A DNA stretch of 64,000 bases from Urechis unicinctus. Lineage: Eukaryota; Annelida; Polychaeta; Xenopneusta; Urechidae. The notes below the pieces were generated by a model. The model was not told where the DNA came from, made no database searches, and was given only the letters and a program-made list of their open reading frames with translations. The position numbers and the translations under genes were made by a program. Where the stretch lies: NCBI GenBank assembly GCA_034190875.2, contig CM067348.1:6072482-6136481 (forward strand), in the 5' to 3' direction. Of the stretch, positions 1 to 60,845 are shown one piece after another (the first letter of the stretch is position 1; each line of letters begins with the position of its first letter).

Positions 1-1740
1 AAATAAGACTAGTGTCCTGTTTATACACTACACGACTGTCAAATAGATTGCTCTTAGATTAGAGGGAAAAGTCTGTTAACTCGAGAAGGAAAGACGTGTC
101 ACTTAAAAACCACTGGAGTAACACTAGTCAGTGGTAACTTCAATGCGAGATGAATCGCAGCGCAGAATGCATTATATGCATTGGAGCAGATAATGTAATA
201 ACGGTTACGTTACATCTCACACCATGTTTTATAATGCTTCTGTCCTACATAAATCCCAGTTACAGAATAAAACGTTATAAACGTACGTTAATTTTCGACC
301 TAAGTCGCCACTCAGCGTTTGGCACTGTCAATAGCACCACTAAATGTTACATTTTATTGATTCCTCCGATCTCAGTTCTGTACACAAAGATGAAATTTTC
401 AATTCGCAATATGCATTGTCAAATTGTTTGACTGTGTAAACATCCTATACCAAAATAGTTATATTTGAAACGCATTTATTCGGTTATATGTTACCGATAT
501 CTGGTTGAACTAATATGAACGCACTTAAACGGTGTTTCAGTACCCTTTAGGGGAAAGGCAGAAGGAGTAAAACTGTTCTGTATGCTTCATCAGATTACCT
601 AAGCGACACATGAATAGATATTCGAGACATTTAGATGTGATAAGAGTCGGGATAAGAGTTAGACACTGAGATAAGTGAATATCGTACACTTTGATAGTCG
701 ACTCTCTAGCTTGCATGTTTCACTGTTTGAATGAGTGAGTAAGGTACCTCACTCTTGATGGTTCGCATTTTGGCAGCATGGACATGATAATCAATACTAG
801 TCATCAGCACGGACGCTGTCCAAGGCGACATTTATTTGCCCATGGAATACGCGATCTATTCTTTAAGAAGCATGAATTAATAACAGAACATCGTCAATAC
901 ATGTATATGTCGCGCAAGCGAGTTACATCTTCGCGATTGTTTTTGTCTGCAGATTATGGTGAAATCTGATCGTAATTAATGGTCAGGGGCAAGGTGTTAC
1001 AGAGGTGTTTTCCATGTAACTGCATAGTGTTGTTGCGGCTACAGTGTAGTAGCATGGGAGAATGACACTTGCATGGCAGCAGTCAATATGGCGATAGTTT
1101 ATGTAGTAACTAAGTTAACGCGGAAATTTGCTGGTCTGTTCGATAGTCCCGATGCAACAAGACCCAAACTTTGCTTTATTAATAAGGCTCGATATTAATT
1201 CCAATGAGTATATTCCGTGGGTGTTTAGGGAAACTGGATACCATTTGGTCGATTTTGTCCTAGGGACAAACTGCTTGATTGCTATTAGCTTGTAGTCTTT
1301 TCTTTACACTTAAGATAACTGACAGCAAGACTAGGTATAGGACACCTCCCATTATGAGGAATTTCACTTCGCATGCAAACTGCACAGGATTTTTCAAGGA
1401 ATCTTGCTTGGCATCAAAAAGACTTTTTCCCCCCTTTATTTCACGACTTCCAGCTGAGTTAGTTGTTGTGAGGTATGAACCATCCATGTTTTAAGGTCTT
1501 TTTAAAAACTGAGAAGTTACAATTACATCAACAACATGCTTCTCACTCACTTTCAATCAATACTTTTATTAAAAAGTTCAGACTTAGATCATAGTGCATA
1601 ATGTTCATTTATTCCAAGCTAAAGAACCGATGACAAACAATTTCCCCCAGGATAAACACACCTTAGTTAATGCATGACGAACAGCATAATGACTTAGTAA
1701 CAATGCATGCATAAAACATAATACAGCCGTGAGTCACCAT
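1..1740. other. No supported gene
   Basis: AT-rich sequence with only short open frames. Between 1260 and 1487 both strands are open. The minus-strand frame contains one hydrophobic stretch, but I see no start context, splice sites or family motif that would make it a gene. Confidence 0.5.
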
Positions 1741-1967
1741 TCAAAACCCCATCAGTGGAGAATTTAAATGTTGGGCATAAGCATCAATATGTTTATACCA
1801 TTTACATTGTGAACAATAGATAATACTTTTTGGTTCGTAAAAAACAATTCTTGCACAATTGTGTATATCTGTGATAATAACTGACAGAAGTGTCCCACTG
1901 GGTTCCATGGCTCTACCACTGACCATTATTGTACTGAATTGGTTTATCCTCAGGGCATGGTAAATTT
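1741..1967 (-). CDS. Candidate terminal exon, unidentified protein
   Basis: A minus-strand frame opens directly after a good acceptor (pyrimidine-rich TTTGTTTCTTCAG, AG at 1969-1968) and runs about 75 codons to a stop at 1741. The composition looks coding, with a regular mix of charged and hydrophobic residues and a small cysteine pair (CSQC), not simple repeat. It lies downstream of, and on the same strand as, the KDZ-like exons at 2.5-5.8 kb, so it could be their last exon, entered in phase 1. I do not recognise the family. It may equally be a separate relic. Confidence 0.3.
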
Positions 1968-2526
1968 CTGAAGAAACAAACAATCAGTGCCAGCAATCAA
2001 ATCATTCAGTTGCATGTAATTATTTCCAAAAGATATGGTGTAATACAGTTGCCTGTTAATGAGTACAAGTTTTTATAAATGTTGTGCTCATTACATGTAG
2101 TATATCAAAAATATTAAAACAATACATACATGTACAGTTACTTTCACAAGAATATTTAATTGGACAAAGTATTATTGGTTTGAAATTTCAAGTAATGTAA
2201 CTTCTTAGGAGATCAGACTTCTATGCATCAGACCCATATTCAGAATCTGATGACACGGGAGGTTCTGTCATACCATTGACATATATATCTGTACTTATCC
2301 CAGAATTGCCAACTGCTTGAGCAATAGCCAGGAAGAGCATTCTTTTAATGCAAGTTTATGTCATGGTGGTGCCTCTGTAGGATTGCAAGCTTGCCTGCTG
2401 TTGCCACGAATTCTGTCTCCATGCCTGGAGAAATGTACAGACATATTATTAATGGAAAACAGTGTGGAGTTTTATATAAGGATATTAAATCATGTTTGAA
2501 ATAATTCATACTTGACTGTAATTGGT

Positions 2527-2647
2527 TCATGTCTGCCAGATTTCTGCAGTGAATTTGTAGTTGGTCAAGTAGATGTTGACTTCATTTGCCAGCTGTTTCC
2601 TTTCTTCTTTGAAGCGTTGCAGGCGAAGCCACTGCTCAACCAGAGCT
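2527..2647 (-). pseudogene. C-terminal coiled-coil exon, KDZ-like transposase
   Basis: The minus-strand frame reads ALVEQWLRLQRFKEERKQLA, then about 18 more residues to a TGA at 2529-2527. The heptad-like spacing of leucines and the dense K/E/R content indicate an amphipathic coiled coil. From memory, KDZ/Zisupton-type transposases end in similar helices (L/R/E-rich, ending in a short Y-rich piece). An overlapping +1 frame (reading SGRHEPITV) continues coding-like sequence past the stop, so a frameshift or splice site near 2560-2580 is likely. It sits 100 bases downstream of the exon at 2755-2911 on the same strand. Confidence 0.4.
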
Positions 2648-2754
2648 CGGGTTTTTTAAGAGGTAACAGTTCTGTCACAATTCATTAAGAATCGAATGAG
2701 AATATAATTCAAAATCGTTTTTGCAAGAGCATATCAGATACAAGAACTGCTAAC

Positions 2755-2911
2755 CCTCAGCCATAGCAAAGAGTCTTGACTCTCAGGAACACCCTTGAGA
2801 AGAGGGACATGCAAGATTGTGGCAAGGCAATTGTAACTTGTTAGGAGCTGTGACCATCGTTGGCGTTCTGCAGAGAGTTTTGTCCTATGACCTGTGCGCT
2901 TTTGCTGCTGT
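2755..2911 (-). pseudogene. Basic helical exon, KDZ-like transposase C-terminus
   Basis: The exon is bounded by an acceptor (GTGTACTAG, AG at 2913-2912) and a donor (GTTAGC at 2754-2749). One frame is open throughout and encodes a basic, Q/K/R-rich helix followed by SYNCLATILHVPLLKGVPES. Its position before a coiled-coil exon, and a pattern of a basic helix plus an SYN-type turn, fit the C-terminal part of KDZ transposases as I remember them. The catalytic core expected between the cysteine cluster (3.7-4.1 kb) and this exon is not visible, so the locus is probably internally deleted. Confidence 0.35.
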
Positions 2912-3374
2912 CTAGTACACAGATACAAAAGTAGTTGATCCTTATGGCCACAAAATTTGGAGGTTTAAGTGAAATATGAATAATTACCAGCCTTGCTTTC
3001 AATGAGCATCTTGTGTTTCATAATACTAGTCATCGTCAGCTCAACATCTTGCCTGACACTTGTTTTGGATCTTTTTGTAGGACTTGGCCCTGTCTAACAA
3101 GCTCACTTTCAGAACTTGTGCTGTTCTTCACCATAAGACTGGGAACATAATATGTATAATAAATACAATTTCATTTTAACGATGCTGTTTAAAGGGCACT
3201 ACATACTTATAAATAAGTTCATCAACCAAATATATATCATAAATCTCATACCTTCTTAGCTGTAATGTGAACTTTTCTTGCATTGAAGTGCACAATGCAT
3301 TACGCTTATGTTCAAATCTTCCATATAACATGCTACAATAACATATTGTGACTTTTTCCAATGTGCATTTGCAG

Positions 3375-3439
3375 GGAGATATGATCTTCACTTGCCAAAT
3401 TTCATTTGTGAAAACTGTGGTTACAATGATCCAATGAAA
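3375..3439 (+). pseudogene. Inverted KDZ-like exon with CxxC knuckle
   Basis: This is a 65-base plus-strand exon with clean borders: acceptor TTTGCAG at 3368-3374 and donor GTAAGT at 3440. It encodes RYDLHLPNFICENCGYNDPM. In KDZ-type proteins a segment of the form GRYD..LP..C..CG...DP follows the first cysteine cluster, and here the first cluster lies at 3.67-4.1 kb on the opposite strand. The exon therefore appears inverted relative to its neighbours on both sides (minus-strand exons at 3.67-5.8 kb and at 2.5-2.9 kb). Confidence 0.45.
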
Positions 3440-3670
3440 GTAAGTTTTGTTATAGCATCTTATATAGATAACCTTTTAACATTTGTTATTTTTGTGCTCC
3501 AAAATATAATATTAGTTATTATTCTTTCACAAGACATATATATAAAACCGCACTGTCAGTGTAGGCAGAATAAGCACACTGACTGCAGTATTATGGCAAA
3601 AGTTTCTCAGGTACCCTGTTGCAAAAATATCAATCTATTCAGTATAGTGGAATCGATTTGAATGATTATA

Positions 3671-5820
3671 TCCTGCCTTGGGATTATCTTCTGGCATCTC
3701 AGTAGGAAGTGGGTAGTAGAAATCAAGATGAAACCATTCCCTGTCATGGCATCCTTCACAAAGGTGTTGGGCTTGTCATGGTCCTCACACATAAACATCT
3801 GGCACTGGAGACACCTGAATATGAAAGTTACACATTAGTGCACAAAAGGTCATTCATAGGTAGATATTACAATATAACTTGCGTAACATTACTGTAGTTT
3901 TGATGGATTTGCACACAGGCAACATTCAGGCTCTTGAGCAGATGGTGCCATGTTTGCTAGCAATGAGTCAACTACCAATTGCCTTTGGGTCTCCCAATGA
4001 TTTTGGCTTTCCGGTTTTCGCTTTTGCCAATCGGTCAGCTCACTATCATCATGGTCATCTTGAACTTGGGTCAGATAATTGGCTGTACTTTTTCCAAATG
4101 TCAGAAACTAAATCGTCTCCTTCACACAGTTAACATCTATCGTCAGAAGATAACTCCATATAAATTTACCCTCTATCACTATAACTACTAATTCATGTTT
4201 AATTATTATTGAACATAAAAAATGCAGTAGCAACTCTCCACAAATATCATGATCTTACCGATAGGATTTTCCTGTATAAGGGCCTCTACGGAAGTATGTG
4301 TATCAACTGTTTGTAACACAAGCAAAGGATGCACCTGAATGTGTTCTTAGAGATCAGTAAATTTTGTGAAATTAATTTTTCTGGAATATTTCATAATTAA
4401 CAAAGGTACCATAATTATTTAGTCTGGCTGAAGAAGCTGAGGTTTGCTTGCGCTTCACTCCATGTGGTATTATACCAGAGGTACTCCTCAGTGGAGAGTT
4501 AACAACAAGACGGGAAGATTTTGCCTTAGCTGGGCGAAGTGCTTTGAGTAATTTAGCAGCGGCTTTATCACATATATTTTTGTATCTGCAGAAATTCTAG
4601 CCTTCAAAAGTGCCAAAACAAACATCAAATTCAGTTTATTTAGCTTTCACTCAACTTATGTCTCCTCACCGATTTCATTGTCCTGTCTATAGCTATCGAT
4701 AATGCTATCATTTAACAGCCTGTACAACTGCCACAGGAACCCCCCAAACTACCAACAAACAAAGAGGAGGTGGTTGCTGATTAGGCAAGGCAACTCGCCC
4801 CTGGTGTTTTGATGATCTGATGCCACCTAAGAGGCGACGGTCCGTATGCAGAATCGTGAGCGTTATAAGCAAATTTGCTCCTTCTCGCAACGCAGACAAG
4901 GGACAGTTAAAAAAATATACATTTTCATATCAACAAATGTCTTATCATCAATCTTGCCTGGTGTCCAACAACAGTCATACTTCAAATCAACAGAATCAAC
5001 GAAATCCAACACAATTTTAAAATTGTTGTCCAACATGGCTATCGTGCAATCGAAAACATGAACGAGAATTAACGCAGTTATGTTGCATTATGGGAGTCAA
5101 CCATGTTGTTTTTTTTAACAAAGTTTCATGATGTGCTGTATTTTATAGCCGTGGACGACTCTTATTGACATATTTTTATACTACCGTCGTGCGCGGCTAC
5201 GTATTTTAGTGCTCAAACAGAACAAGTAGACAAAACTGTAGTAATATAAACAGTCCTCCTGTAATTTTGTGATATAATCTTGCATTTTGTCACAAATTGT
5301 TTTGCTTGGAGGGCTTTGGTAAGTTTTTAGTGAGTTCATCGGTCGTTTGGACTTCAGAAGCTCCGTAATTTCACTGGCTGCGCTTCGCCTCTAAAGCTCG
5401 GATGTGAGATCGAAAGTAGTAAATAGAGCGGAGCTGTAAGAGGTTGAGATTCTTTGCCTAGTTGGTGATAAAAGGAACGCTGTACATTTCCATATCATCA
5501 CATCAGATTGTCGATAATATAGGCATGACATAAACGTTTGCGGGAAGCAAAGCCCCCCTTCCCTAGCCGCACACGACGGTAATATAAACAAGACAACCCC
5601 TTCCACTGATCGAAATATATTGCGTAACCTAAGATAGAGAGCGTGTAAATATGAAACAAGTGACTATAACATTAAAGCATGGAACAAATATTACTACAAG
5701 TGCCCTTTGACAAGTTTCATGGTGCTTACACCTGAGTCCATCTTCGGTTAGTGTACATAATTGACGATTTAATAACAATTAAAACATCGAAGCATCCTCA
5801 CCTGACCGTATGTCCGCCAT
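3671..5820 (-). pseudogene. KDZ/Zisupton-like gene, 5' exons with cysteine cluster
   Basis: Six minus-strand exons join in consistent phase: 5820-5802 (MADIRS, donor GTGAGG), 5038-4921 (GTATAT), 4585-4410 (GTACCT), 4306-4259 (GTAAGA), 4107-3893 (GTAATG) and 3814 to about 3671. The product starts acidic, then has a basic nuclear-type stretch (RPAKAKSSRLVV, GVKRKQTSASS). Exons 5 and 6 form the cysteine cluster CCLC ... CLQC...MCEDHD ... CEGCHD, followed by REWFHLDFYYPLPTE. This layout (CxxC, CxxC, C..HD, a second HD, then W/F and P) is that of the CxC domains that precede KDZ DNA-transposase cores. Two single-base shifts break it: one extra C in exon 5 (GGG at 4068-4070 on +) and one missing base in exon 6 (near 3771-3778). 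No catalytic core is visible. A 13-base direct repeat (5839-5851, 5857-5869) lies in the 5' leader. It could be a host gene derived from the transposon, with assembly errors in place of true frameshifts. Confidence 0.5.
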
Positions 5821-13204: not shown

Positions 13205-13925
13205 ATGTTGTGATGCTAGACGCATCGAAGGCATTAGATAGGGTAAATTATGTTAAATTGTTTAAATTGATGATACGAAGAGGTATGTGTTCTACTAACG
13301 TAATGTTGCCCCTATATATATAATTAAACCAATCGTTATTAGTTAAATGGGGGTTGGATGTGTCTGACGCATTACAATGCAGTAATGGCATTAAGGAGGT
13401 CGGGGTATTATCAGCGATTCTTTCTTGTATTGTTATGGACGAGCTGCTCAAACGTCTTGAACATAGTAATGTTGGTTGTCATGTCCGTCATCAGTTTATG
13501 GGTGCATTGTGATATGCCGACGACTTAACACCCCTTGCTCTCTAAGTCACTGCTGCCGAGCTTATGATTTCAATATGTGAATGTAATTTTCAATAGTGAA
13601 AAACGTGTGTTGCTGTGCTACAATATACCACAATGTAATACTGATCTTGAATTACGGCTGAAAAAAGGCAGTTTACCTGGGAAGTTATATTAGTCATGAA
13701 TATAACGATGCGAATATCGAAAAGGTTGCAGGAGAATTATTTTATCGTACTAACATTTTGATGTCCAGATACGGTTTTTGTCGCACCGACGTCCATACAA
13801 AGCTATTTGATACCATTTGTCAAGTTTCTATGGCAGTCTTTTATGGAAATTGGATTTAATGTCTCTTGCTAAAATAATTGCTGCTTGGCGAAATTGTATT
13901 ATGAGAGTTCTTAAGCCTGCACGAA
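13205..13925 (+). pseudogene. LINE reverse transcriptase fragment, broken
   Basis: Pieces in shifting frames read, in order: LDASKALDRVNYVKLF (RT palm motif, 13210 on), a stop-riddled stretch, then NGIKEVGVLSAILSCIVMDE (corresponding to the usual NGVKQGGVLSP motif), GCHVRHQFMGAL, a TGA, and YADD at about 13513, the RT catalytic box. A later piece (about 13690-13850, GELFYRTNILMSRYGF ... FDTICQVSMAVFYG) and SLAKIIAAWRNCIMRVL match the C-terminal part of LINE ORF2 as I recall it. At least two stops and several frameshifts show it is dead. Its right end coincides with the left edge of the 3.6-kb duplicated segment. Confidence 0.75.
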
Positions 13926-14323
13926 ATCTGTCAGCAGCGCGAAGCCCGTATGTTGACATCTCTAACACTTGCAAAGGCCGATGAGCTTCATACGTTCCTA
14001 TGCATAAATTTAATTGCATTTCATATTTATATTGCCTACCAACTCTTGAACTTTTGTAAAAATTCGATTTGCGAATAAATACTATATACATATACATATT
14101 ACGGTACAAATAACGTAAATGGTAATATTAAATCATGCTACCCTCACGACGTATTTCATGCGAATCGGGCTCATTTGCTCATCGAGTAAATAGATCAAAG
14201 GAAATGTATAATACACATATTTTGTCCCACTACCGCAACGTATTTTGTTTCCTGGACCACACAATATCGACAATACTAATATACGTGTGTACATGTATAC
14301 ACATGTATAAATATGTAAATATG

Positions 14324-14325
<2 letters not shown>

Positions 14326-14379
<54 letters not shown>

Positions 14380-14404
14380 TATATATACAAATATATATAT
14401 ATAC

Positions 14405-14436
<32 letters not shown>

Positions 14437-14475
14437 TTTTATATATGTATACATTTATATATATATACATTTATA
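14326..14475. repeat. (AT)n array in copy 1
   Basis: Mostly (AT)n with ATAC and AAAT interruptions. The matching array in copy 2 (about 17990-18130) is shorter. Confidence 0.95.
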
Positions 14476-16512
14476 CATTTATATGTGCATATTATTATAT
14501 ATAACATATAACCTGACTTTCCCCACACAATATGCTTAGAGTACCATACATGTGGCAACACAACTGCTCTTGAAAATGTAAGATACCATGAGTTTAGTTT
14601 AGGTATCACCCTTGGGTGGTATTTGAAGAGTTCCTCCCTGTTTACTGTGACACTACCAACAACGTTAAAGTTGAGGCCAATACAGAATTGTGAGTAACAC
14701 TGTCCAGTCCTTCACAAAGGCTAAACTAAAGCGGCCTGAGCTCAAGCTGTCGAGCAACATTATCGAAAACTTTAAAAACTTAAAATGCGTTTTGAGGATT
14801 ACTGTGCTCAAGCGGATTACAGGGACTCAGCCAGGAACCGTAACACAGACAAAGCTGGGTATCATGCAATATCTAAGCTACAGCTTGCCGTCCCCGGTCC
14901 TTCTACCCGGATGAGGCTCTCCCGTTGCTTCGGTACACAATCACGCCACAGGTCCCGGATGCGTCCTGACTCAAGCATATCGAACATAATGACAGATACT
15001 GTGGTATATCATTATCACTGTTTTGTTACTTGTTAAAGGTACTTATAATAACAGCATATCATCGACGTGACGGAATGGACGCCGCCATCATACTCCCAAA
15101 CCGGAAGAAGTAATATAGCTGGATGCAAATACAGAAATCTTTATACAGACAAGAATTGCTACAGTCGTAGCTAAACTGTTTAATGTTACCTGATATGTGA
15201 GGAATAGGCAGCCATCAAAAACCAGTTAACTAGGTAATGAGTGTGAATCATTGTTGCAATTCGTACGGGTTGAATGATCGTCGAAATATTGTTTGCTAGT
15301 ACTTTAGAGATATATCTCCCTGAGTATTAATGGACACGGATTAGCCGTACGCAATCATACTAAGCTATTGACACAACACGTGATCTATTCGCAGTTATCC
15401 ATACTTGACAAATGTGTTGGGTAAAATACATCGCCCCAGTTTAATGCTGATGCTAATTATAAGGCACACACCAGTGCAGAGGTGGGATAGCGTTAGCAAG
15501 GTTCTCACGCAGGCGATCAAAGTGTTGGTTGCGTATACACTGTTTTGTTGGCCGTGCGAGAAGATGGCCTGGTATGCAGAGCAATAACCATGTACTCCTG
15601 CAAACTAAACACAAACAAGCTAATGGACGGAAACACGCCTGCAGGTGATGTTTGCGTGTGAGAGAACAAATAGCATTGTGCATAAAACTGACAGCACTGC
15701 ATTCGTCTACGAACGTTTCGACGACAGATTTCAAACCCAGTCTGATGCTTTTATGATGCGTCACGTTTTGTTTCACAAATATCACTATTAAACAAAACAA
15801 ATAACGTTATATGATTATATATCTAGTTGGAGTAAGGTATGGTAATCGAAGAATCTTAAAGTTCGAGGCACATTTTCTATTGATAATATGTTTTTCTTTT
15901 AAGTTATTCTAATGACACTTTTGTTCTGGTGATACAATGAACGCAACCACTCCTTGCTAGTTAAAACCATTCACGAAGAAGAACTAAAGCATACACAATG
16001 TGCCAAGTTTACAATAATCTGCTCGCTCTTTAAATTGATTGATATCTTTTATATGCCTTACATAGCATAATGCCAAGGTGATTTCTTTGTCAAACAGCAT
16101 CAAAAGGGGAGTAAATGCATGACACATTAAATAACTGTGATTTACCAAACTATTTTGTTCCCGTGTACCACTGGGTCATGTCAGAAGCATTAGCTGATGT
16201 AGGTGGCATGTATCATATGTACCGGGCCCTGACATCTCAAAGGTATGCTTTTGTTATCAATTTTAGTTGGTAATTTGCAATTAATTCATGTAAAATAACG
16301 AAATAAACACCTGCTTAATTGATGCCTGTTGTCTATTTTCTGTTGCAAAGTGCCTATATTAATATTTCTGATGTTGATCATGAAATAATTGATCTACCTA
16401 TCAATTGGGACTGTTATATATAAGTTATACCCTGATTATTCTGAAAGGAGGCTAACTGCAGCGATGAGGATGAGGGTGATAAATATTATAGCACTGTTGG
16501 CGTTAATTATAT

Positions 16513-16660
16513 CTTCATATGTGATGATTATGATGATGATTATTCTGACGATGATAATGATGATGATGATGATATCAATGATGATGATGATGATAATGAT
16601 GATGATGATGAGGATGATGATGATGATGATGATGAGGATGAGGATGATGATGATTGGAAT
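16513..16660. repeat. (GAT)n array in copy 1
   Basis: GAT/GAG trinucleotides read as poly-Met, poly-Asp or poly-Ile depending on frame. The equivalent array in copy 2 is at 20166-20310. Its overlapping open frames are repeat artefacts. Confidence 0.95.
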
Positions 16661-17586
16661 GAGGATGATAGAAATGGCCGTCACTGCAGGGAATATCCCC
16701 AAATACTAGCAAATTAAAGTTTATTGCGCCGAATGAAGTTTTTACTGGACCATAACGCCATGAATCGTGCAAAGTATGGGTAAAATAAAAGACCAGCAAA
16801 GAATATAGTGAGTCTATCTTGGTTTTCAGAGCATAACCGCAACCAACACATGTCATCTTTTATGCCGGGTTTGAAGTATATATTGAAGCTGAAGGTTAGT
16901 TATTAATCGATATGTTCATATGTCAGCCTTAAGCATAGATAAGATGAACAACCTGTTAAACAAACCACCCGATGGCTTCATGGATAGATCACAAGGCATT
17001 ATGTGTGCAATTAATCAAATATCTTACTCGGCTTACCGTGTCAGTAATACCGACATGTTGAGTCAAACCAGCTACAATATAATCTAACTGTACAATCTGA
17101 CCTGGGGTACTGTTGAATAAACGTGGAGCAGTTTATTATTCTTAGCCCACACACTGCTATTAAACGTAAAGCTTTCTTCTAAGTAAGGGAAAGGAGGTTT
17201 TCGGTTTCATGTATTTATGTCAATTACATATATGTTTATGTTGCAGGACAAAATAAGCTTTTTATTGCAACTACTACCAGGATGCGTGGTGAAACACCTC
17301 AAAACGGAATCGCACTCAAACAGTAATAGAGTTTGCACAGTGACTGTTTGAGCCCTTCTAGGGCCTGCTAAATTCCTATCAGATTTGTTTTTGGTTCTTT
17401 GACATAGTGTATGACTCGCAGCGAAAAGGCATTTAATTATTCACCATCTGTAGGCTGTTGCTGTAACGGACTAATCTACACCGGAGTATTTAACATGTCG
17501 CACGAGTAAGCAATTTACCTACTCAATGTTTTTTAAGATTGATAAAGTATTTGCTTAAGACAGGGCAACAATATGCGATTTGCAAA

Positions 17587-17988
17587 AAATCTGTCAGCAG
17601 CGCGAAGCCCGTATGTTGACATCTCTAACCCTCGCAAAGGCTGATGAGCTTCATACGTTCCTATGCATAAATTTAATTGCATTTCATATTTATATTGCCT
17701 ACCAACTCTTGAACTTTTGTAAAAATTCGATTTGCGAATAAATACTATATACATATACATATTACGGTACAAATAACGTAAATGGTAATATTTAATCGTG
17801 CTACCCTCACGACATATTTCATGCGAATCGGGCTCATTTGCTCATCGAGTAAATAGATCAAAGGAAATGTATAATACACATATGTTGTCCCACTACCGCA
17901 ACGTATTTTGTTTCCTGGACCACACAATATCGACAATACTAATATACGTGTCTACATGTATACACGTGTATAAATATGTAAACATGTG

Positions 17989-18034
<46 letters not shown>

Positions 18035-21000
18035 TATATATATACAAATATATATATATACATATATATATATAAATATATATATATATATTTTTATATA
18101 TGTATACATTTATATATATATATACATTTATACATTTATATGTGCATATTATTATATATACATATAACCTGACTTTCCATACACAATATGCTTAGAGTAC
18201 CATACATGAGGCAACACAACTGCTCTTGAAAATGTAAGATACCATGAGGTCAGTTTAGGTATCACCCTTGGGTGGTATTTGGGGAGTTCCTCCCTGTTTA
18301 CTGTGACACTACCAACACCGTAAAAGTTGAGGCCAATACAGAATAGTGAGTAACACTGTCCAGTCCTTCACTAAGGCTAAACTAAAGCGGCCTGAGTTCA
18401 AGCTGTCGAGCAACATTATCGAAAGCTTTGAAAACTTAAAATGCGTTTTGAGGATTACTGTGCTCAAGCGGATTACAGGGACTCAGCCAGGAACCGTAAC
18501 ACAGACAAAGCTGGGTATTATGCAATACCTAAGCTACAGCTTGCCGTCCCCGGTCCTCCTACCAGGATGAGGCTCTCCCGTTGCTTCGGTACACAATCAC
18601 CCCACAGGTTCCGGATGCGTCCTGACTCAAGCATATCGAACATAATGACAGATACTGTGGTATATCATTATCACTGTTTTGTTACTTGTTAAAGGTACTT
18701 ATAATAACAGCATATCATCGACGTGACGGAATGGACGCCGCCATCATACTCCCAAACCGGAAGAAGTTATATAGCTGGATGCAAATACAGAAATTTTTAT
18801 ACAGACAGGAATTGCTACAGTCGTAGCTAAACTGTTTAATGTTACCTGATATGTGAGGAATAGGCAGCCATCAAAAACCAGTTAACTAGGTAATGAGTGT
18901 TAATCATTGTTGCAATTCGTACGGGTTGAATGATCGTCGAAATATTGTTTGCTAGTACTTTAGAGATATATCTCCCTGAGTATTAATGGACACGGATTAG
19001 CCGTGCGCAATCATACTAAGCTATTGACACAACACGTGATCTATTCGCAGTTATCCATACTTGACAAAGTTGTTGGGTAAAATACATCGCCCCAGTTTAA
19101 TGCTGATGCTAATTATAAGGCACACACCAGTGCAGAGGTGGGATTGCGTTAGCAAGGTTCTCACGCAGGCGATCAAAGTGCTGGTTGCGTATTCATTGTT
19201 TTGTTGGCCGTGCGAGAAGATGGCCTGGTATGCAGAGCAATAACCATGTACTACCGCAAACTAAAAACAAACAGGCTAATGGACGGAAACACGCCTGCAG
19301 GTGATGTTTGCGTGTGAGAGAACAAATAGCATTGTGCATAAAACTGACAGCACTGCATTCGTCTACGAACGTTTCGACGACAGATTTCAAACCTGATGCT
19401 TTTATGATGCGCCACGTTTTGCTTCACAAATAACACTATTAAACAAAACAAATAACGTTATATGATTATATATCTAGTTGGAGTAAGGTATGGTAATCGA
19501 AGAATCTTAAAGTTCGAGGCACATTTTCTATTGATAATATGTTTTTCTTTTAAGTTATTCTAATGACACTTTTGTTCTGGTGATACAATGAACGCAACCA
19601 CTCCTTGCTAGTTAAAACCATTCACGAAGAAGAACTAAAGCTTACACAATGTGCCAAGTTTACAATAATCTGCTCGCTCTTTTAATTGATTGATATCTTT
19701 TATATGCCTTACATAGCATAATGCCAAGGTGATTTGTTTGTCAAACAGCATCAAAAGGGGTGTAAATGCATGACACATTAAATAACGGTGATTTACCAAA
19801 CAATTTTGTTCCTGTGTACCACTGGGCCATGTCAGAAGCATTAGCTGATGTAGGTGGCATGTATCATATGTACCAGGCCCTGACATCTAAAAGGTATGCT
19901 TTTGTTATCAATTTTAGTTGGTAATTTGCAATTAATTCATGTAAAATAACGAAATAAACACCTGCTTAATTGATGCCTGTTGTCTATTTTCTGTTGCAAA
20001 TTGCCTATATTAATATTTCTGTTGTTGATCATGAAATAATTGATCTACCTATCAATTGGGACTGTTATATATAAGTTATATCCTGGTTATTCTGAAAGGA
20101 GGCTAACTGCAGCGATGAGGATGAGGGTGATAAATATTATAGCACTGTTGGCGATAATTATATCTTCATATGATGATTATGATGATGATAATTCTGACGA
20201 TGATAATGATGATGATGATATCAATGATGATGATGATGATAATGATGATGATAATGAGTATGATGATGATGATGAGGATGAGGATGAGGATGAGGATGAT
20301 GATGATTGGAATGAGGATGATAGTAATGGCCGTCACTGCAAATACTAGAAAATTAAAGTTTATTGCGCCGAATGAAGTTTTTACTGGACCATAACGCCAT
20401 GAATCGTGCAAAGTATGGGTAAAATAAAAGACCAGCAAAGAATATAGTGAGTCTATCTTGGTTTTCAGAGCATAACCACAACCAACACATGTCATCTTTT
20501 ATGCCGGGTTTGAAGTATATATTGAAGCTGAAGGTTAGTTATTAATCGATATGTTCATATTTCAGCCTTAAGCATAGATAAGATGAACAACCTGTTAAAC
20601 AAACCACCCGATGGCTTCATGGATAGATCACTAGCCATTATGTGTGCAATTAATCAAATATCTTACTCGGCTTACCGTGTCAGTAATACCGACATGTTGA
20701 GTCAAACCAGCTACAATATAATCTAACTGCACAATCTGACCTGGGGTACTATTGAATAAACGTGGAGCACTTTATTATTCTTAGCCCACACACTGCTATT
20801 AAACGTAAAGCTTTCTTATAAGTAAGGGAAAGGAGGTTTTCGGTTTCATGTATTTATGTCAATTACATATATGTTTATGTTGCAGGACAAAATAAGCTTT
20901 TTATTGCAACTACTACCAGGATGCGTGGTGAAACACATCAAAACGGAATCGTACTCAAAAAGTAATAGAGTTTGCACAGTGACTGTTTGAGCCCTTCTAG

Positions 21001-21164
21001 GGCCTGCTAAATTCCTATCAGATTTGTTTTTGGTTCTTTGACATAGTGTATGACTCGCAGCAAAAAAGCATTTAATTATTCACCATCTGTAGGCTGTTGC
21101 TGTAACGGACTAAACTACACTGGAGTATTTAACATGTCGCACGAGTAAGCAATTTACCTACTCA
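17587..21164. repeat. 3.6-kb tandem segmental duplication, copy 2
   Basis: Second copy of 13922-17525, separated from copy 1 by 61 bases (17526-17586). It lacks the LINE sequence that precedes copy 1. It contains an (AT)n array at about 17990-18130 and a (GAT)n array at about 20166-20310. The right edge is sharp: after CCTACTCA the copies diverge at once. Confidence 0.9.
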
Positions 21165-24843: not shown

Positions 24844-25272
<429 letters not shown>

Positions 25273-29762: not shown

Positions 29763-30994
29763 TCACACCACAGTGGTTACTTCCCCAGCCGGATCTGTCG
29801 TCATGCGTCCATTTCCATTCGTCTGCGTCGTCTGCTTAACAACGTTCTGCTTCTTTGGAATGCATTTACAGAGAATGATGACCAGTTGCTCTCTGAATAC
29901 CCTGCCACTGACGGTGTAGAGAAAGAAGTTTATGACGAAACCCACAACATACAATGTACGCGTAATACTGGCAGCCATCCACATGGAGTCTGCGCGAAGG
30001 TCTAGGACAGCTTTGCGATCCAACTTGCCCAGCATAAAATGTACCAGCACTGGCATATAGGTCAAAATATAGGAGGTCGACACTAGAACAAGCATAACTG
30101 TAACTTGTTGGTTTCGATCGGCGCGCGTGACTCGGTGCTTCCACCAACTCGACGACTTCTGCAGAATTAGAAGAAGAATTGAGAGCGATTTGAGTAGACA
30201 CGTGGCGCCTCCGTCGGTCGTTCATGGCTTCAGGCTGATGCATCAATTTCAGAATGATACTGAGGTTGAAGGCGGCGATAAGGAACACCGGAACAATGCG
30301 AAAGATGCTTATTTCTGCGATGTAGAGGTCACTGAAGAGGTGCTCATGGGTGAGTGACATGGTACATGTCATGTCGATGGACACGCTGATAAACATGAGG
30401 TGGTACGGGAGAATGGTAACAGCGATGGCCACCAGTAAACCACAACACGCGTACTTGGACATGCGAGCGTTAGATAATGATTTAAATTTGACCGGTCGAT
30501 ACACTGCAAGAAGGCGTTCTGCCGTGAAGGCCAAGATGAGACAGGACGAATAATTGGCAGAAAAATCCATCAAATACTGAAGCAGTTTGCAGAAAAAGTC
30601 GTACTTATTAAAAAGATCAAGCGCACTGCTGGCAAACGTAAGACATCTCAATGAAGGTAGAACTCTTCGCCATAAATATGGCCACTAGGTAGGTGGAGTC
30701 CGACACAGCTAAAACCAACAGGAATATATTACAGGGCCCATTCCGCATCGCGGCTGACGAGAATACTAGTCCGGATAAAAAATTGCCAACCAGTCCCACG
30801 AAGACCAGTACAAATGTTAAACAGGCACATATTTTCTCGGTGTATCTGACGGCCAGTGACGCTGTTAATAGATCATAACAAACCCCACCGGGGGCAATAG
30901 TTATGGTCAGGTTGTCCAGATCCCCCAAGGAGATGTTCGAATTATTCAAGAAATTGTGGATCCGCTCCCAATTGTATTTGTGGCGCTCGTCCAT
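29763..30994 (-). pseudogene. Class A (rhodopsin-like) GPCR with two frameshifts
   Basis: An intronless seven-helix receptor of about 410 residues, read in three frames. Fragment 1 (30994-30617) has an extracellular N-terminus with three N-glycosylation sequons (N17, N20, N28), TM1 with GN (N71) and TM2 LAVSD (D99). Fragment 2 (about 30650-30100) has the TM3 cysteine (FFCKLLQYL), an ERLLAVYRP motif in place of DRY, TM4, an ECL2 cysteine (MTCTM) and TM5 with VPVFLI. Fragment 3 (about 30120-29763) has DRNQQVTVMLVLVSTSYILT, TM6 with YMP and no CWxP tryptophan, TM7 INFFLY in place of NPxxY, and helix 8 with a cysteine tail (CKC). These variants are usual for invertebrate peptide-receptor-like GPCRs, and the ligand cannot be told. 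Both breaks are +1 shifts, in ECL1 (30617-30650) and ICL3 (30095-30130). The start has a strong Kozak context (CACCATGG). It is either a recent pseudogene or an assembly with two indel errors. Confidence 0.85.
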
Positions 30995-52729: not shown

Positions 52730-55384
52730 AGAATTAATAATTTTGTTTTCAACCATGCTATTCTTTGTTATGATTAAATGAAACTCTTGACATTGAAATA
52801 TAGACTTATTTATTAGTTTGGCTGGGGGTTTTTCCGGCCTGCTACACCGGGTATAATTGCCATGCCAACCTTGACTGTTTTTAATACAATACTGACCACT
52901 TTCACAACAAGCAACGGAAATGAGCTGACATTTATTGATGCCTATCACGGTGGTAACCCTGATTAATGGCTTCACGCTGGTGTTTTGCTGTAAATTGAAA
53001 TGTAGTCATAAAGGTATCAAACTTGATTGGTGGAAAATAGGATTTTGAACGCCGTTAATATAAAAAGGAAGTATGGACACTATTGTAAGCGTTACATGCA
53101 GGAGCTGATCAAAGTGGCTTTATTGCCCATATATTACATTTCAGCAAATGAGATGAAAGGCGCGGCATGTTCTCCAACAGAGTTGAGGGCGCATCATGTA
53201 GCAGAAGTAATCTACTGTTATGAACTTCAAGGGGTCGATCAGGACCACGTGACATACGTTCTTAATCTTAACAATTTTATTAAACAAAGGAATGTAATGC
53301 ACAGTTTGCTAAGACAAAACATACGACTTGCATACGACCAGCTCGCACGCAGTGCGTAGCATTAAATAATAGATACATGTACGCGGCACAATAGCTTGTT
53401 ATGTAACAATATGCTGGCTAATGCTCAATCGAATGGTAACCGGCATGATTTTATGACACTTATGTACATCCAGAAAACGTATCGCATTTGTTAATAGCAA
53501 AACAGCGTTAAATATACATAATGTATGTCACACAATATGGCATTAAACGTCTGTATGAAGTTTTTGTTGCAATACTCGATCGTTCAAAGCGTCTGTCCTG
53601 ACAAGAAGGTAGAGCGAAAATGTATTATTCCCAAAACGCAATCGTTAATAGACAATATATGCAGAGACGGGATGCTAAAATGCGCATTGCGGCATCAGCA
53701 CAGCATATTAAGGCATAATGTACATTACAAGTGTAATTCAATAAGCCGGATCACACTGATTCTACTAAAATTGATAAGCGGGTAATTTTAGTGGATAAGC
53801 GTGTTTGAAGACCCATTCATGAAATTAATGACCGCATATGTTAATATTTCCCTTCTTTAGTACAATTACCCAAGCTCAAGCATCGACCGTTTGCAGAAAG
53901 CACAGGCACTCGAGCGCCCACTCGCAAATCAGATGTCCGAACGCGAGTGCCTGTGGCATAACGAGTCACGTTTGTTTATTTATAAACAATAACAATGTCA
54001 CGCCTTATGCTGTTTTATTATTCAATTATATGTTTCGCTCACACACAGCAAAGTGGCGTCGGCGTACAGGGTGATGCGATTACCATTCCTAGCATATAAT
54101 TCCTGTTAACTGCCTCAAGCTTTCCCTTTAGTTGTCTAATGGTGCCAGTATACGTAACAGAATAACGGTGCGGGACTGCGTCATAGGTTACTCTTTTTTG
54201 TTTGCTGCCTTTCTCGACAACTGTGCTTGCCGGTAAAAAAACCGCCTCCAATTATTCAGGTAAAACATATTCTGAATTCTATAAACAGGCGGAGCTCAGC
54301 AATAGCACAAGAAAATGCGAGAGTTGCGCATGCGTATCTGCTGGTCTAAGATAACTATTCATTGGTATACATTTGCACACAAGTTTGAAGCTTATTAAAA
54401 TGCGCAATTATTGATTCCCAATAACATGAAATAATTGAAAATAAGTCATTTTAGCAACTACACTCATAGTGCGGCTGCAGTTTAGTTGATTAGTACTCAT
54501 CTGCAACCATTCATTACACCTCTCACCCGCTTGTGATTCCAAACAATGCGTGTTGCTACGGATCTATGGTATATGATAAATCAATCTATGAAAAGGGATG
54601 AATGTACTTGTAAGGGTTAATAAATATGCGATAATATACAAGTATATAGAAATATTTTGCAAACGCATTATTTTTGAGCGATTCACAATTATCTAATAGT
54701 TGCGTGCCGAAGGGGTAAGTCACAAATGTTGTGCACAAAACTTTGCCAACGCTGCCAACAGTGTCACAATTAACGAAGAAACTTTGATGAGTTAGTTATT
54801 GTAAGAAGTGTATTTAAAATATACAACATATATATATAAAGTAATGTTTGACCCCCAAAAAATTGCAAGAAAAGTTTTTTTTGTCTTTTTGTGTTCAATT
54901 AGCTGTACTTAAGCGCATTCTAAAAGTTAATCAAATTTGAGCCACCGGAAAGTGGTGAAATTACATAATATCCAATATGGCCGCCATTGAATTATGAATG
55001 TACAGCAAACTTTTTAATGGTTGGTTTTAGACCCCATAAATGTATTACAAACATATATAAATGTGATATCTTAGATTCAAATAAGGTCATGATGAGTTCA
55101 CCTGGATGTCCCTATGACGTAGTATTGCATCATCATGACGTAGTGGGTTGCTGCATAGATCAAGACCGCCAGAACTGGTAGAAAACCAACATTTCGGCTC
55201 TTGATAATCAATCAGATGCACATACACAAGGAACCACAACTTGGAAGGGCTTTTGAACCATCTACGTCATGGTCATACGCCATACGTCACACATCATAAA
55301 TTACCAAAATGTCCCAAATAATTGACATAGTACACACCTGAATTTTCTTATCTAGTTCAAGTGTCTTTCACACAATATAATTGT
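52730..55384. other. No supported gene
   Basis: AT-rich sequence with short open frames (53027-53359, 53525-53785) that lack natural starts or motifs. It ends at the 3' border of the large nuclease gene. Confidence 0.45.
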
Positions 55385-56626
55385 TCAAAACACAGCATGG
55401 TTATTATCATCACAATCTTCTTCCTCGGAACCGTCTATGGTAGTATCACTATTATGCGGATTGTAACATGACTCAGCTTGGCAGGGTCCACAAGCAGAAG
55501 TACATGGAAGACCGTACTTCCTGCAACTGCATCGAGTATTACTACAACCTGTTGTACAGTTACAATGGATAACCTTGAGAGACCTTTCTGGAGCCGCTTT
55601 CTGGTCAGTCATAACAGGTAACAAAATGTTGTCTTCACACTTCCAACCCCAGTCTTTTGGGTCCATATTTTCATCCTTACCCATCCACACCATGATCTGA
55701 TAAAATGAACGTTGAGAGTGGAACTTTGCCGCAGATTCCGTTGGGGGCAATTTCTCGGGCTTCACAAATGATTTAGCAAGCAATGTATTTCTAAGGTTTA
55801 CCAGAGATGTGCCAGCTTTTCCTCCAAACAAAGAAACAAAGACTTTGCATCCTGAATCAACTATTGTTGCCACATCCTGACCAGCTGTAGTAAAGGTCTT
55901 TGCACAAGTTCTTATCTGAGAATCATTTTTCATCACTTTTTGGAAAAGGGATTTCTTGCCAATACCATAAATCCTGGAAGTGCTTTCACAACCTGTAAAA
56001 GCATGTACAAACAGCAGCTGTGAATATATGTCATTTCCCAAGAGTTCCTTCAGACGGACAATATCATATACAAGTTTTGCTTTCTTTTTGTCAGAACGAA
56101 AGTAGAGTTTCTTGCTATCCCTCTCAGTGTAATGCAGAAGCAGAATCAGAAGGTCCGTGTCTTCCCCAATCAAAGTTGTGTCTCGAACTTTTGCAGATGT
56201 TGTTGCTGCCTTCACAATATGAACATCTCCATCTCCATGCGCATTGATGACTTCGCAACCCCTCTGTTTCAGTTTGTCACTGATGAGGAGGATTAGTTTC
56301 TGTTTATTAGAGTCCCTTGATAAGAAATCCTCCATTCTGCCAGAGGAAAAGACGGTATTCATTTCAAAAGACACAAGCGGGTGTGATTTCGTTTGTCGTC
56401 TCTGATGTTCATTGTCCTTGATGCTAGGCTCTTCACTGTATCCGGCAAAAACTACTGTGGCTTGTCCATACTTGGAAAGGGTGAGATTGGCATACTCTTC
56501 GGCAATTTCCCCGTAGGTAATCCTTTTTTTCCATGACAGACGGTGAAGTAAGGAGCCTCCGTCAAGCACAAAATGTTCGGAATCTGCTGGAGCTGGAGGA
56601 TTCATTTGCGTAATCCCGTAGAGCAT
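55385..56626 (-). CDS. FEN1/XPG-like nuclease domain with CXC tail (3' half)
   Basis: A 413-codon open frame. Acidic residues fall in the order of the FEN1/XPG PIN-like fold: D22 in VLDGGSLLHR, D132/D134 in HGDGDVHIVKAA, and E155-D156-T-D158 in LIGEDTDLLILL. A helix-hairpin-helix-like TGCESTSRIYGIGKKSLF follows (210-228), resembling GCDY..GI.GIG.K of FEN1, but with Glu (214) at the usual Asp. Residues 355-387 form a CXC zinc-binding domain (C355-x-C357, C361, C366-x-C368, C375, C379, C382, C387) as in Tesmin/TSO1 and EZH2-type proteins, where it binds DNA. The tail is acidic. Predicted role: a metal-dependent, structure-selective DNA nuclease acting in the nucleus, possibly for mobility of the element. 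The first residues before MNPPAP are in the wrong frame, so the listed start is nominal. Confidence 0.7.
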   Translation of the reverse strand: MLYGITQMNPPAPADSEHFVLDGGSLLHRLSWKKRITYGEIAEEYANLTLSKYGQATVVFAGYSEEPSIKDNEHQRRQTKSHPLVSFEMNTVFSSGRMEDFLSRDSNKQKLILLISDKLKQRGCEVINAHGDGDVHIVKAATTSAKVRDTTLIGEDTDLLILLLHYTERDSKKLYFRSDKKKAKLVYDIVRLKELLGNDIYSQLLFVHAFTGCESTSRIYGIGKKSLFQKVMKNDSQIRTCAKTFTTAGQDVATIVDSGCKVFVSLFGGKAGTSLVNLRNTLLAKSFVKPEKLPPTESAAKFHSQRSFYQIMVWMGKDENMDPKDWGWKCEDNILLPVMTDQKAAPERSLKVIHCNCTTGCSNTRCSCRKYGLPCTSACGPCQAESCYNPHNSDTTIDGSEEEDCDDNNHAVF

Positions 56627-56724
56627 CAGCTAACTGTGGCTTGTCATGTACATTGACATCTGCGTTGGCCACTACACCAGTCACAACATTTCTTAATGAA
56701 GAATCCTCAGCAAATGGATTGCAG

Positions 56725-58416
56725 TCAACTAAATTTTTGCATCAGTTTAGTACTGTCGACATGATCACGTTGCATCCTTGGCACTGTGGCGTCTTTGTGC
56801 TGTTCACTTGAGGTAAATGATTGTTTATAGAACTCTTGCATCGCAAGGTTGTACGCAGATGACACGGATGATGACAGTGTCCAGATGGTCCTTAGTTCCT
56901 CTGTCATGCCACTTCCTCTGGTTAGACCACCGCTACTTTTGAGGGAAAGCATGAGAGTCTGTTCTATAGTTAGATCCGATCCCAATCCTGCCCAGAACTG
57001 GTCTGTCCTCCTAATAACATGTAGGCCGTTTTCAAATTTTGTAACAATGTCTGGATGCTTGTGACCTAGTTCATTCATGCACTGTAGGTAGAAGTATGCA
57101 GACTTAACATAATAGAAATGTCCAGCAGCTGCGAATATCGGAATGCAATCAGACACTGCACTGAGATGCATTCTCCAGTCGCCTGAGCGATCAGCTCTGA
57201 TCAATGCACGGGCTATTTCCAACATCTCCTGATATCCGATCCAAAGTTGACTGGTTTTGGATGAAGCTGCAATGCTAACCTTTGCTGACTGGATTTTCTG
57301 CTCAATGTGCTTGATTTCTTCTAATGATTTTAACGACTCGTAGGACATTTCACCAGACACAATGGAAGAATAAACAGTCTCTATCCTTTTAATCGTAGAG
57401 CGAAATTCTGGGTTATCCTGGATGAGCCCACCTAGAATGATCTGATTGAGACACTTGTCAACCAGGAGATGACCACGCAGTGCCCTCTGCACAGCTTTAC
57501 CGGAACGAATGTGAACAACTGCATTTTCCCCATATTTTTCTTCTAATATTGACCCTAGTCCTGATCCTTGCATGAGTGCGCCAATAGCCCCAAGAAGATT
57601 AATTAGCTTGTGGAAGCTGCCCAGTAGAATTACAATGTCCCTGAGATGACTGTTGATGTGTGCGTTGTGCTGGATTTCAGAGGCCTTCCAATACAATGGC
57701 TGATCAAAGGTAATCACTGCTGGTACATGGTTCTTCCTGGCCAAGTTGTATACGTATTCAAGAGTTGACAAGATGCAAGTTTTGTCACCTGGATACATGT
57801 CAATCATGGGGAGGAAAGTCACAGACGATTTCCCAGGATGTGTAGAGCATTGATGAATCAAATGCATCATCCCCTGCCAACCAGGTGTAGGTTGTTTAAA
57901 TGAAAAGAAAAGTTCCCATAGAATATCAACTGGCTGACTGAGAACCTGCGGGATTTGCAGTTCCTTAAATACAACGGCTCTAGAGACGTGCTTCGCGAAG
58001 CGAGATTCAATAATGCCAATTTTTGCAAATTCAACAACGTGCAGGTTGGTAGTCTTCTGCCGCGGGACAATGCGGTTAACAAACTGCCCTGGTGTCAATG
58101 CAACAACCATCCCCATGCCATGGAATGTCCCTTTCCCATCTATCGTCATAAGGTTATGGTCCACATTATCATCTGCGAATAGTAACATGGTGTCAGGTGA
58201 GTTTATATCTGTTCCAAAAATGTCTGGCGCTACTGCATCAGCGGCATTTCTTTCAAACCTTAGAACTTCAGAATAAGAAGAACAGAAGCCCATCGCTGCG
58301 AGCGAGTCGATCAGAAACTTAGAACAGTATAGGTGATGCATCTGGACTGGAAGTGCAATTTGTAAAGGTGCCACAACAAATCCGTAGTAGTCATGCCGTA
58401 ATGAGTCATGTGTCAC
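56725..58416 (-). CDS. N-terminal half of the same family, function unknown
   Basis: A 563-codon open frame. It can be extended upstream (reading ADFWHVTHDSLRHDYYG) to the acceptor at 58437. Conserved-looking blocks: MHHLYCSKFLIDSL and SYSEVLRFERNAA (24-58), LLFADDNVDHNLMTIDGKGT (78-97), MIDMYPGDKTCILSTLEYV (204-222), VITFDQPLYWKA (235-246), ILLGSFHKLINLLGAIGALM (263-282), and YGENAVVHIRSGKAVQRALR (295-314). An Asp after a hydrophobic strand occurs twice (D82/D83/D86 and D238), which could be two metal ligands of an RNase H-like fold. That is a guess. No zinc finger, signal peptide or membrane segment is seen. The frame ends at a frameshift near 56729, not at a natural C-terminus. Confidence 0.65.
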   Translation of the reverse strand: MTHDSLRHDYYGFVVAPLQIALPVQMHHLYCSKFLIDSLAAMGFCSSYSEVLRFERNAADAVAPDIFGTDINSPDTMLLFADDNVDHNLMTIDGKGTFHGMGMVVALTPGQFVNRIVPRQKTTNLHVVEFAKIGIIESRFAKHVSRAVVFKELQIPQVLSQPVDILWELFFSFKQPTPGWQGMMHLIHQCSTHPGKSSVTFLPMIDMYPGDKTCILSTLEYVYNLARKNHVPAVITFDQPLYWKASEIQHNAHINSHLRDIVILLGSFHKLINLLGAIGALMQGSGLGSILEEKYGENAVVHIRSGKAVQRALRGHLLVDKCLNQIILGGLIQDNPEFRSTIKRIETVYSSIVSGEMSYESLKSLEEIKHIEQKIQSAKVSIAASSKTSQLWIGYQEMLEIARALIRADRSGDWRMHLSAVSDCIPIFAAAGHFYYVKSAYFYLQCMNELGHKHPDIVTKFENGLHVIRRTDQFWAGLGSDLTIEQTLMLSLKSSGGLTRGSGMTEELRTIWTLSSSVSSAYNLAMQEFYKQSFTSSEQHKDATVPRMQRDHVDSTKLMQKFS

Positions 58417-58462
58417 ATGCCAGAAATCTGCTCTGGAAAAGGGCGGATCATTCTATTTTAGG

Positions 58463-59404: not shown

Positions 59405-59458
59405 GCATCGGTAGCTGTAAAATATGAATTGTTTAAATCTTATTGCATGTCTGTCTAT

Positions 59459-60190
<732 letters not shown>

Positions 60191-60845
60191 TATGCACTTC
60201 AACACTTTACGTAAGTAAAGCAAAGATTCGCTAAGTCTATTAACTATAGAGTGCAGTCATGAATGCGGACTTACCTGGTACCCCACAAGTGTGAGTGCCT
60301 TATATCAGGCAATATCGTCCGCAGCACCGCCGTTGGTAAATACTTAAATTAAATAAACAGACCAGACGATTGACGCACCGACCAAACAATCTGAATATTG
60401 CTTGACAAATTCAAGGCACTACCAAAGCTAGTCCTCAGTGACTACCGGACTCTCCTTCCACTTGGAAAATTAGCCACGCTTTATTGCATTATTCATGGGC
60501 GAATTATGCGGATTGTTAATGACATATTCCCGGTTAGTTAGTTAGGACCAATGACCGTACGCGATATTTCACAGAAACCCGCAATATCAAATGGCTATAT
60601 TTTAGTTTCAGTGCGTTCGAAGATGCCAACAATTAGTGTTAATGCGACCATCCCGAAGCAAAATAACGGATGTCATTTGTTCACATTGGACATATGATTA
60701 CTGATTGCCAGTATAACTTTACATTGGTATCATTTAATGTGTGTGTGTTTATATTTAAACCAGTACACCTCTGAAACCGAAGTACAAGCAACACTCCCTG
60801 CTAGACAGGTATTATCTGGCCACTCTATCCAACGATATAGTCCCA
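60191..60845. other. No supported gene
   Basis: About 650 bases of unique sequence between two microsatellite blocks. Nothing recognised. Confidence 0.5.

Follow-up and report, generated by a model that had tools for sequence, protein, structure and literature searches.

The 64,000-nucleotide stretch of the Urechis unicinctus genome analyzed here (the window; assembly GCA_034190875.2, contig CM067348.1, positions 6,072,482 to 6,136,481) contains, at 54838..58378 on the minus strand, what is with near certainty a copy of a mobile DNA transposon and not a gene. The copy is a truncated member of an element of ~6.3-6.4 kb, which most probably is an Academ-type (AcademX-like) cut-and-paste transposon, an assignment that rests on its anatomy. 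The element is multi-copy, runs from TAG to CTA, has imperfect inverted ends and is flanked by 3-bp target duplications. It also carries a long coding stretch and has given rise to amplified derivatives with internal deletions. The original prediction had described a mobile repeated gene with a nuclease-like region and a tail rich in cysteines, and in this it is upheld by the inverted ends, the 3-bp duplications and the presence of both protein parts.

The genome (1.19 Gb, 926 contigs) was searched with both halves of the coding region, and as only the best candidates were scored, the match counts are lower bounds. From 1,089 candidates, the nuclease half gave at least 101 scored matches, one of them the window copy itself, with identities of 76-100%. 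The N-terminal half (56725..58377) gave at least 79 matches including its own, with 76 scored out of 655 candidates. Long stop-free frames persist in some copies, and stops interrupt many of the scored matches. The motif HAxTGCDTT was found five times in the same genome, each time as one identical sequence and once within a scored copy. To compare copies, twenty 9.5-kb regions, first fetched with the nuclease half as query, were oriented and aligned to one another; two of three extra stretches proved to be copies already in the set, and the third was not used. All copies were found via coding queries, a procedure that short end-only derivatives would escape.

The ends were located allowing three substitutions in 22 rows (20 distinct copies), with both ends present in 15 and not in the other 7. 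Fourteen of the 15 two-ended copies start with TAG and one with TAT, and all finish with CGCCTA. An exact 3-bp target duplication flanks 14 of them, and a 4-bp duplication none (0/15). The outermost 12 nt of the imperfect inverted ends read TAGTCGGGTCAA and TAGGCGAGTCAA. Local alignment of end against end over 400 nt scores 141, and the score within the first 120 nt is 104; when the left end was shuffled by single bases, the best of 300 scores was 71. One full-length copy, L029, measures 6,290 nt, and ~129 nt present in another, L009, are absent from it. Paired end matches delimit further full-length copies of 6,383 nt (contig C2) and 6,386 nt (contig C11), for which each end search scored the best 40 of 544 and 568 candidates. 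A short direct repeat (95%) also lies within the left end of L029, at element positions 59-120 and 161-221.

These observations leave next to no probability for an immobile host gene family, whether ordinary or domesticated. The long stop-free frames of some copies would fit such a family, but the common ends, the exact 3-bp duplications at all but one of 15 copies, the ~100 scored matches, the many stops and the neutral pattern of changes described below do not. A host gene was rejected on copy number, target duplications and neutral decay. The original prediction had likewise called the gene multi-copy, which the ~100 further scored matches confirm, and had named single-copy orthologs without mobile ends as the finding that would speak against mobility. 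That picture is contradicted by the same ~100 matches together with the inverted ends and the 3-bp duplications.

The copy in the window was delimited by blastn with full-length L029 and L009. It is without element sequence before position ~2,566 (~2.57 kb; L029 numbering) and without the final 10 nt. What remains of the right inverted end lies at 54838..54980 on the minus strand, where the terminal ...TTTGACTCGCCTA is shortened and followed by TA-rich DNA. The list of open reading frames (ORFs) for the window holds two on the minus strand in this region, 56725-58452 (575 aa) and 55385-56629 (414 aa), and comparison with other copies identifies both as pieces of one broken coding stretch. Homology to the element begins at 58378, and residues 1-25 of the upper ORF fall outside it. 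Relative to copies L009 and L033, a one-base length difference directly precedes the stop of the upper frame (56733, minus strand). Two deletion junctions on the same strand mark the loss of 273 nt versus L009 or 275 nt versus L033 (56646/56647) and of 27 nt versus L009 or 26 nt versus L033 (56586/56587), and 18 nt are absent at 55778/55779 relative to both. With its 5′ part gone, its frame broken and two FEN1-type acidic residues altered, the window copy is dead. No second copy was found within the window, as the other tblastn matches all had E >= 0.35.

Because the two window ORFs do not form one open frame, the joined full protein has to be inferred from copies elsewhere. The coding stretch of L029 opens with a Met codon at element position 1469 and closes with a stop at 5733, with one frameshift and one stop inside. 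L030, which represents the same genomic copy as L009, has its frame breaks at sites other than those in L029. Judged from the sequences of these copies, the ancestor would have had a single frame of ~1,460 codons. The claim that one protein family joins both halves stands as far as the existence of both ORFs is concerned; in the window itself the frames are separate, and the join comes from the other copies. From the N- to the C-terminus, the protein comprises two cysteine-rich stretches (CSLCDKE... and CLYCG...HHSC), a linker, a region with ADNVDHN, TFDQP and IEQTL, a second linker, the FEN1-like region, and the CXC-like tail. L029 and L030 carry ~400 more N-terminal residues, which are absent from the window copy. 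Next to the cut 5′ end of the latter of these copies lies a 308-aa ORF (L030:7069-7995, plus strand) with two zinc-knuckle-like motifs that appears gag-like by eye, perhaps a retroelement insertion or a junction.

The N-terminal part of the window copy (56725..58377, minus strand) is a transposase-like remnant with a candidate catalytic D, D and E, recognized from its ORF, translation, genome matches and a tally of the three residues. The candidate first D, in FADDNVDHN (58153..58179, minus strand; FAADNVDHN in L029), is retained in 7 of 8 covering copies. The candidate second D, in VITFDQP (57697..57717, minus strand), is retained in 9 of 9, and the candidate E, in LTIEQTL (56953..56973, minus strand), in 21 of 22, with a stop in the remaining copy. 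A catalytic role for these residues is predicted from this pattern. The ~600-residue N-terminal region, earlier described as unclassified, is best read as the putative transposase part. No transposase family was matched in Pfam at E<=10, and searches of PHROGs, NCBIfam and the PDB yielded nothing beyond chance.

The nuclease-like part and the CXC-like tail share the open frame of 414 codons at 55385..56629 on the minus strand, the strand on which all of the following motifs lie. The first FEN1-like acidic motif, VLDGG (56555..56569), has its D in 22/22 copies. The second (56438..56452) reads VFAGY in the window copy, where the acidic residue is lost, and VFDGY in all 21 further copies tallied. 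The third, HGDGDVH (56219..56239; HGDADVH in L029), retains both D residues in 22/22 copies, as does the fourth, GEDTDLL (56147..56167), its E, D and D. The fifth, together with a hairpin-like motif, reads TGCESTS...GIGKK (55952..55996), with D in place of E in the same 21 copies. Across the 22 copies, all eight acidic positions are thus retained, save for the D to A (VFDGY) and D to E (GCDSTS) changes of the window copy. A pattern of the ordered motifs fits four of four archaeal FEN1s and L029, and none of 200,000 shuffles of L029; it does not fit the window copy, and it is a post hoc pattern, drawn up after both families had been viewed. The element resembles the FEN1/XPG/EXO1/GEN1 flap nucleases in the order and rough spacing of the acidic motifs and in the GIGxK motif. 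It differs from archaeal FEN1 in its third acidic motif, which is D.D here and E.E there, and from the flap nucleases in general in that its nuclease-like part is joined to a transposase-like region.

The tail (55457..55564, minus strand) contains nine cysteines, each retained in 18-22 of 22 copies, and was recognized from this tally and from a weak resemblance to the CXC zinc domain of MSL2. EZH2 and tesmin/TSO1 are further proteins with CXC zinc domains. The tail shares with these domains a CXC-like spacing of its nine cysteines, and its matches are far from significant. In Pfam, MSL2-CXC was found at E = 3 with 8.5 bits, where the cut-off is 26.7, and in the PDB at E 0.94, where it was outranked by carp granulin (0.35). 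The tail is labeled CXC-like because the curated CXC model was not matched. Of the CXC domain originally proposed, the nine conserved cysteines hold up, and the MSL2-CXC match stays below significance.

The copies decay as if neutral after insertion. Among the 22 copies, divergence from the column majority is 0.9-2.5% over 1,220 nt of the nuclease half. Of 257 changes, 72 are synonymous (0.28), compared with 0.276 expected without selection, an expectation that uses a transition weighting chosen by the authors. Rows L011, L035, L036 and L039, being duplicates or too short, do not enter this comparison. Two classes of internal deletion occur among the copies. Five copies share the breakpoints of class 705-3344, to which L017 belongs with a bigger loss, and six share those of class 1448-3609, to which L013 and L014 belong with further loss. 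The mean pairwise difference is 0.48% in class 705-3344 (15 pairs) and 2.1% in class 1448-3609 (28 pairs), and it is 1.1% among three full-length copies. Neither of the first two D motifs is present in class 705-3344, which is marked by 2 synonymous and 12 non-synonymous diagnostic changes. From these comparisons, the class spread recently, and its frame shows no sign of having been constrained, which would be expected of elements moved in trans.

The deletion classes also bear on whether the FEN1-like nuclease itself might be the recombinase of a selfish system, with the N-terminal region in an accessory role, a reading that is very improbable. Both classes retain the nuclease half and are without the first two D motifs, as it would predict. 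However, retention of the nuclease half is expected from the coding queries used, and the younger class, with its 2 synonymous and 12 non-synonymous changes, shows no constraint on its nuclease frame. Moreover, 7/8, 9/9 and 21/22 of the copies having these sites retain the D, D and E, respectively. Mobility through the nuclease alone was rejected on the search bias and on the lack of constraint seen in the young deletion class.

The nuclease of AcademX elements is of the XPG type. AcademX is the nuclease-bearing lineage of DDD/E transposons in the Academ superfamily, and its target duplications of 3-4 bp, as opposed to 9-10 bp in AcademH, are tied to the encoded nuclease or helicase (PMC10045372). 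Target duplications of 3 bp are likewise given for Academ (PMC5199201). In bivalves, where Academ as a whole is abundant, 100 curated Academ elements with a mean length of 5,565 bp are reported and other molluscs are poorly represented (PMC10294476), and Academ-1 is listed for the hard clam (PMC8905726). The element in U. unicinctus has in common with AcademX a putative nuclease beside a candidate DDD/E-type transposase region, the 3-bp duplications, the inverted ends and a size of several kilobases. A target duplication within the 3-4 bp of AcademX was found, as were terminal inverted repeats, and the nine-cysteine CXC-like tail is a feature seen in the present element. AcademH shares the superfamily name and encodes a helicase; it was ruled out by the duplications of 3 bp (not 9-10 bp) and by the lack of any helicase match in Pfam. 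The suggestion that the system lies outside the standard transposon classes is accordingly not sustained, as AcademX with its nuclease and 3-4 bp duplications has already been published (PMC10045372). Among the papers listed in a limited literature search, none described a fusion of Academ with an XPG nuclease and none, by title and abstract, a CXC/tesmin domain on a transposon protein, which does not imply that either is unpublished.

Several results weigh against the assignment to Academ and against parts of the anatomy on which it is built. The relation to Academ is one of anatomy, not of sequence, and Academ proteins were compared by description only. One of the 15 two-ended copies, L025, has no 3-bp duplication, and Zator transposons also make duplications of this length (PMC10045372). 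No part of the protein scored above the cut-off in Pfam or NCBIfam. For the nuclease half, hhalign against four FEN1s was not significant (probability 0.6, score 19.5; maxima of 1.3 and 22.2 in a control of 40 column shuffles), the best alignment covering the GCDST...GIGKK stretch, and a single-sequence fold model was worthless, with a mean predicted local distance difference test (pLDDT) score of 31. Pfam showed no XPG/FEN1 family at E<=10. Because no profile matched and hhalign remained within the range of the shuffles, the region is called FEN1-like and is not placed in the FEN1/XPG family. The original claim of a FEN1/XPG-like nuclease with all acidic clusters therefore survives in the order of the motifs, and it is qualified by the two changed residues in the window and by the non-significant profile comparison.

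It is unlikely that the element belongs to a non-Academ superfamily, known or unnamed, that gained a FEN1-like nuclease and a CXC-like tail independently. The duplication length is not exclusive to Academ, as Zator shows (PMC10045372), no transposase match was obtained in Pfam, and Academ is known here by description only, all of which such an origin would accommodate. Set against this, a nuclease combined with a DDD/E transposase and 3-4 bp duplications is what has been published for AcademX (PMC10045372), and no other transposase family appeared in Pfam at E<=10 either, a result for which Pfam's coverage of superfamilies was not checked.

For an Academ-type transposon, the parts of the protein suggest a division of labor. 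The cysteine-rich N-terminus and the CXC-like tail may bind DNA, either at the ends or in chromatin, and the middle part would act as a DDE transposase, cleaving at the element ends and inserting them into target DNA at cuts staggered by 3 bp. Flap trimming or second-strand cleavage, in excision or gap processing, could fall to the FEN1-like nuclease. If the protein works in trans, deletion derivatives with both ends would be able to spread. In a more speculative version, which is rather improbable, the element would have two nuclease centers, the DDE and FEN1-like cores, flanked by cysteine-rich DNA-binding modules; the flap nuclease would make the second-strand cut and set the 3-bp stagger, and the element would perhaps form a separate superfamily. 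With the Academ assignment, an odd multi-copy gene finds a place among DNA transposons, with a recent burst that includes derivatives seemingly moved in trans, and the same reading may account for similar invertebrate proteins now listed as uncharacterized. If the FEN1-like part acts in transposition, the element also offers a route to asking how a flap nuclease shapes the length of target duplications made by DDE transposases.

Among viral and prokaryotic contigs, a motif search gave 35 loci, and no relatives were confirmed. A tblastn search of the element proteins against these loci returned three rows with E 0.33-0.42, two of them in L059, a planctomycete contig with apparently unrelated ORFs.

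Elsewhere in the window, positions 13918-17525 and 17581-21164 form a 3.6-kb direct duplication, 96.5% identical and nearly head to tail, with no ORF of at least 150 aa. A gene fragment of a rhodopsin-like G-protein-coupled receptor lies at 29866-30684 on the minus strand (Pfam 7tm_1, E 5.1e-11), overlapped by a frame at 29763-30221. On the plus strand, an ORF at 59437-59949 has TPGS1_C as its sole Pfam match, under the cut-off, and presumably resembles the C-terminal end of a non-long terminal repeat retrotransposon protein. A long imperfect inverted repeat (88%) lies within microsatellite-like DNA at 24844-25272, and a 150-bp repeat is present in two inverted copies, 87% identical, at 17966-18117 and 60048-60197.

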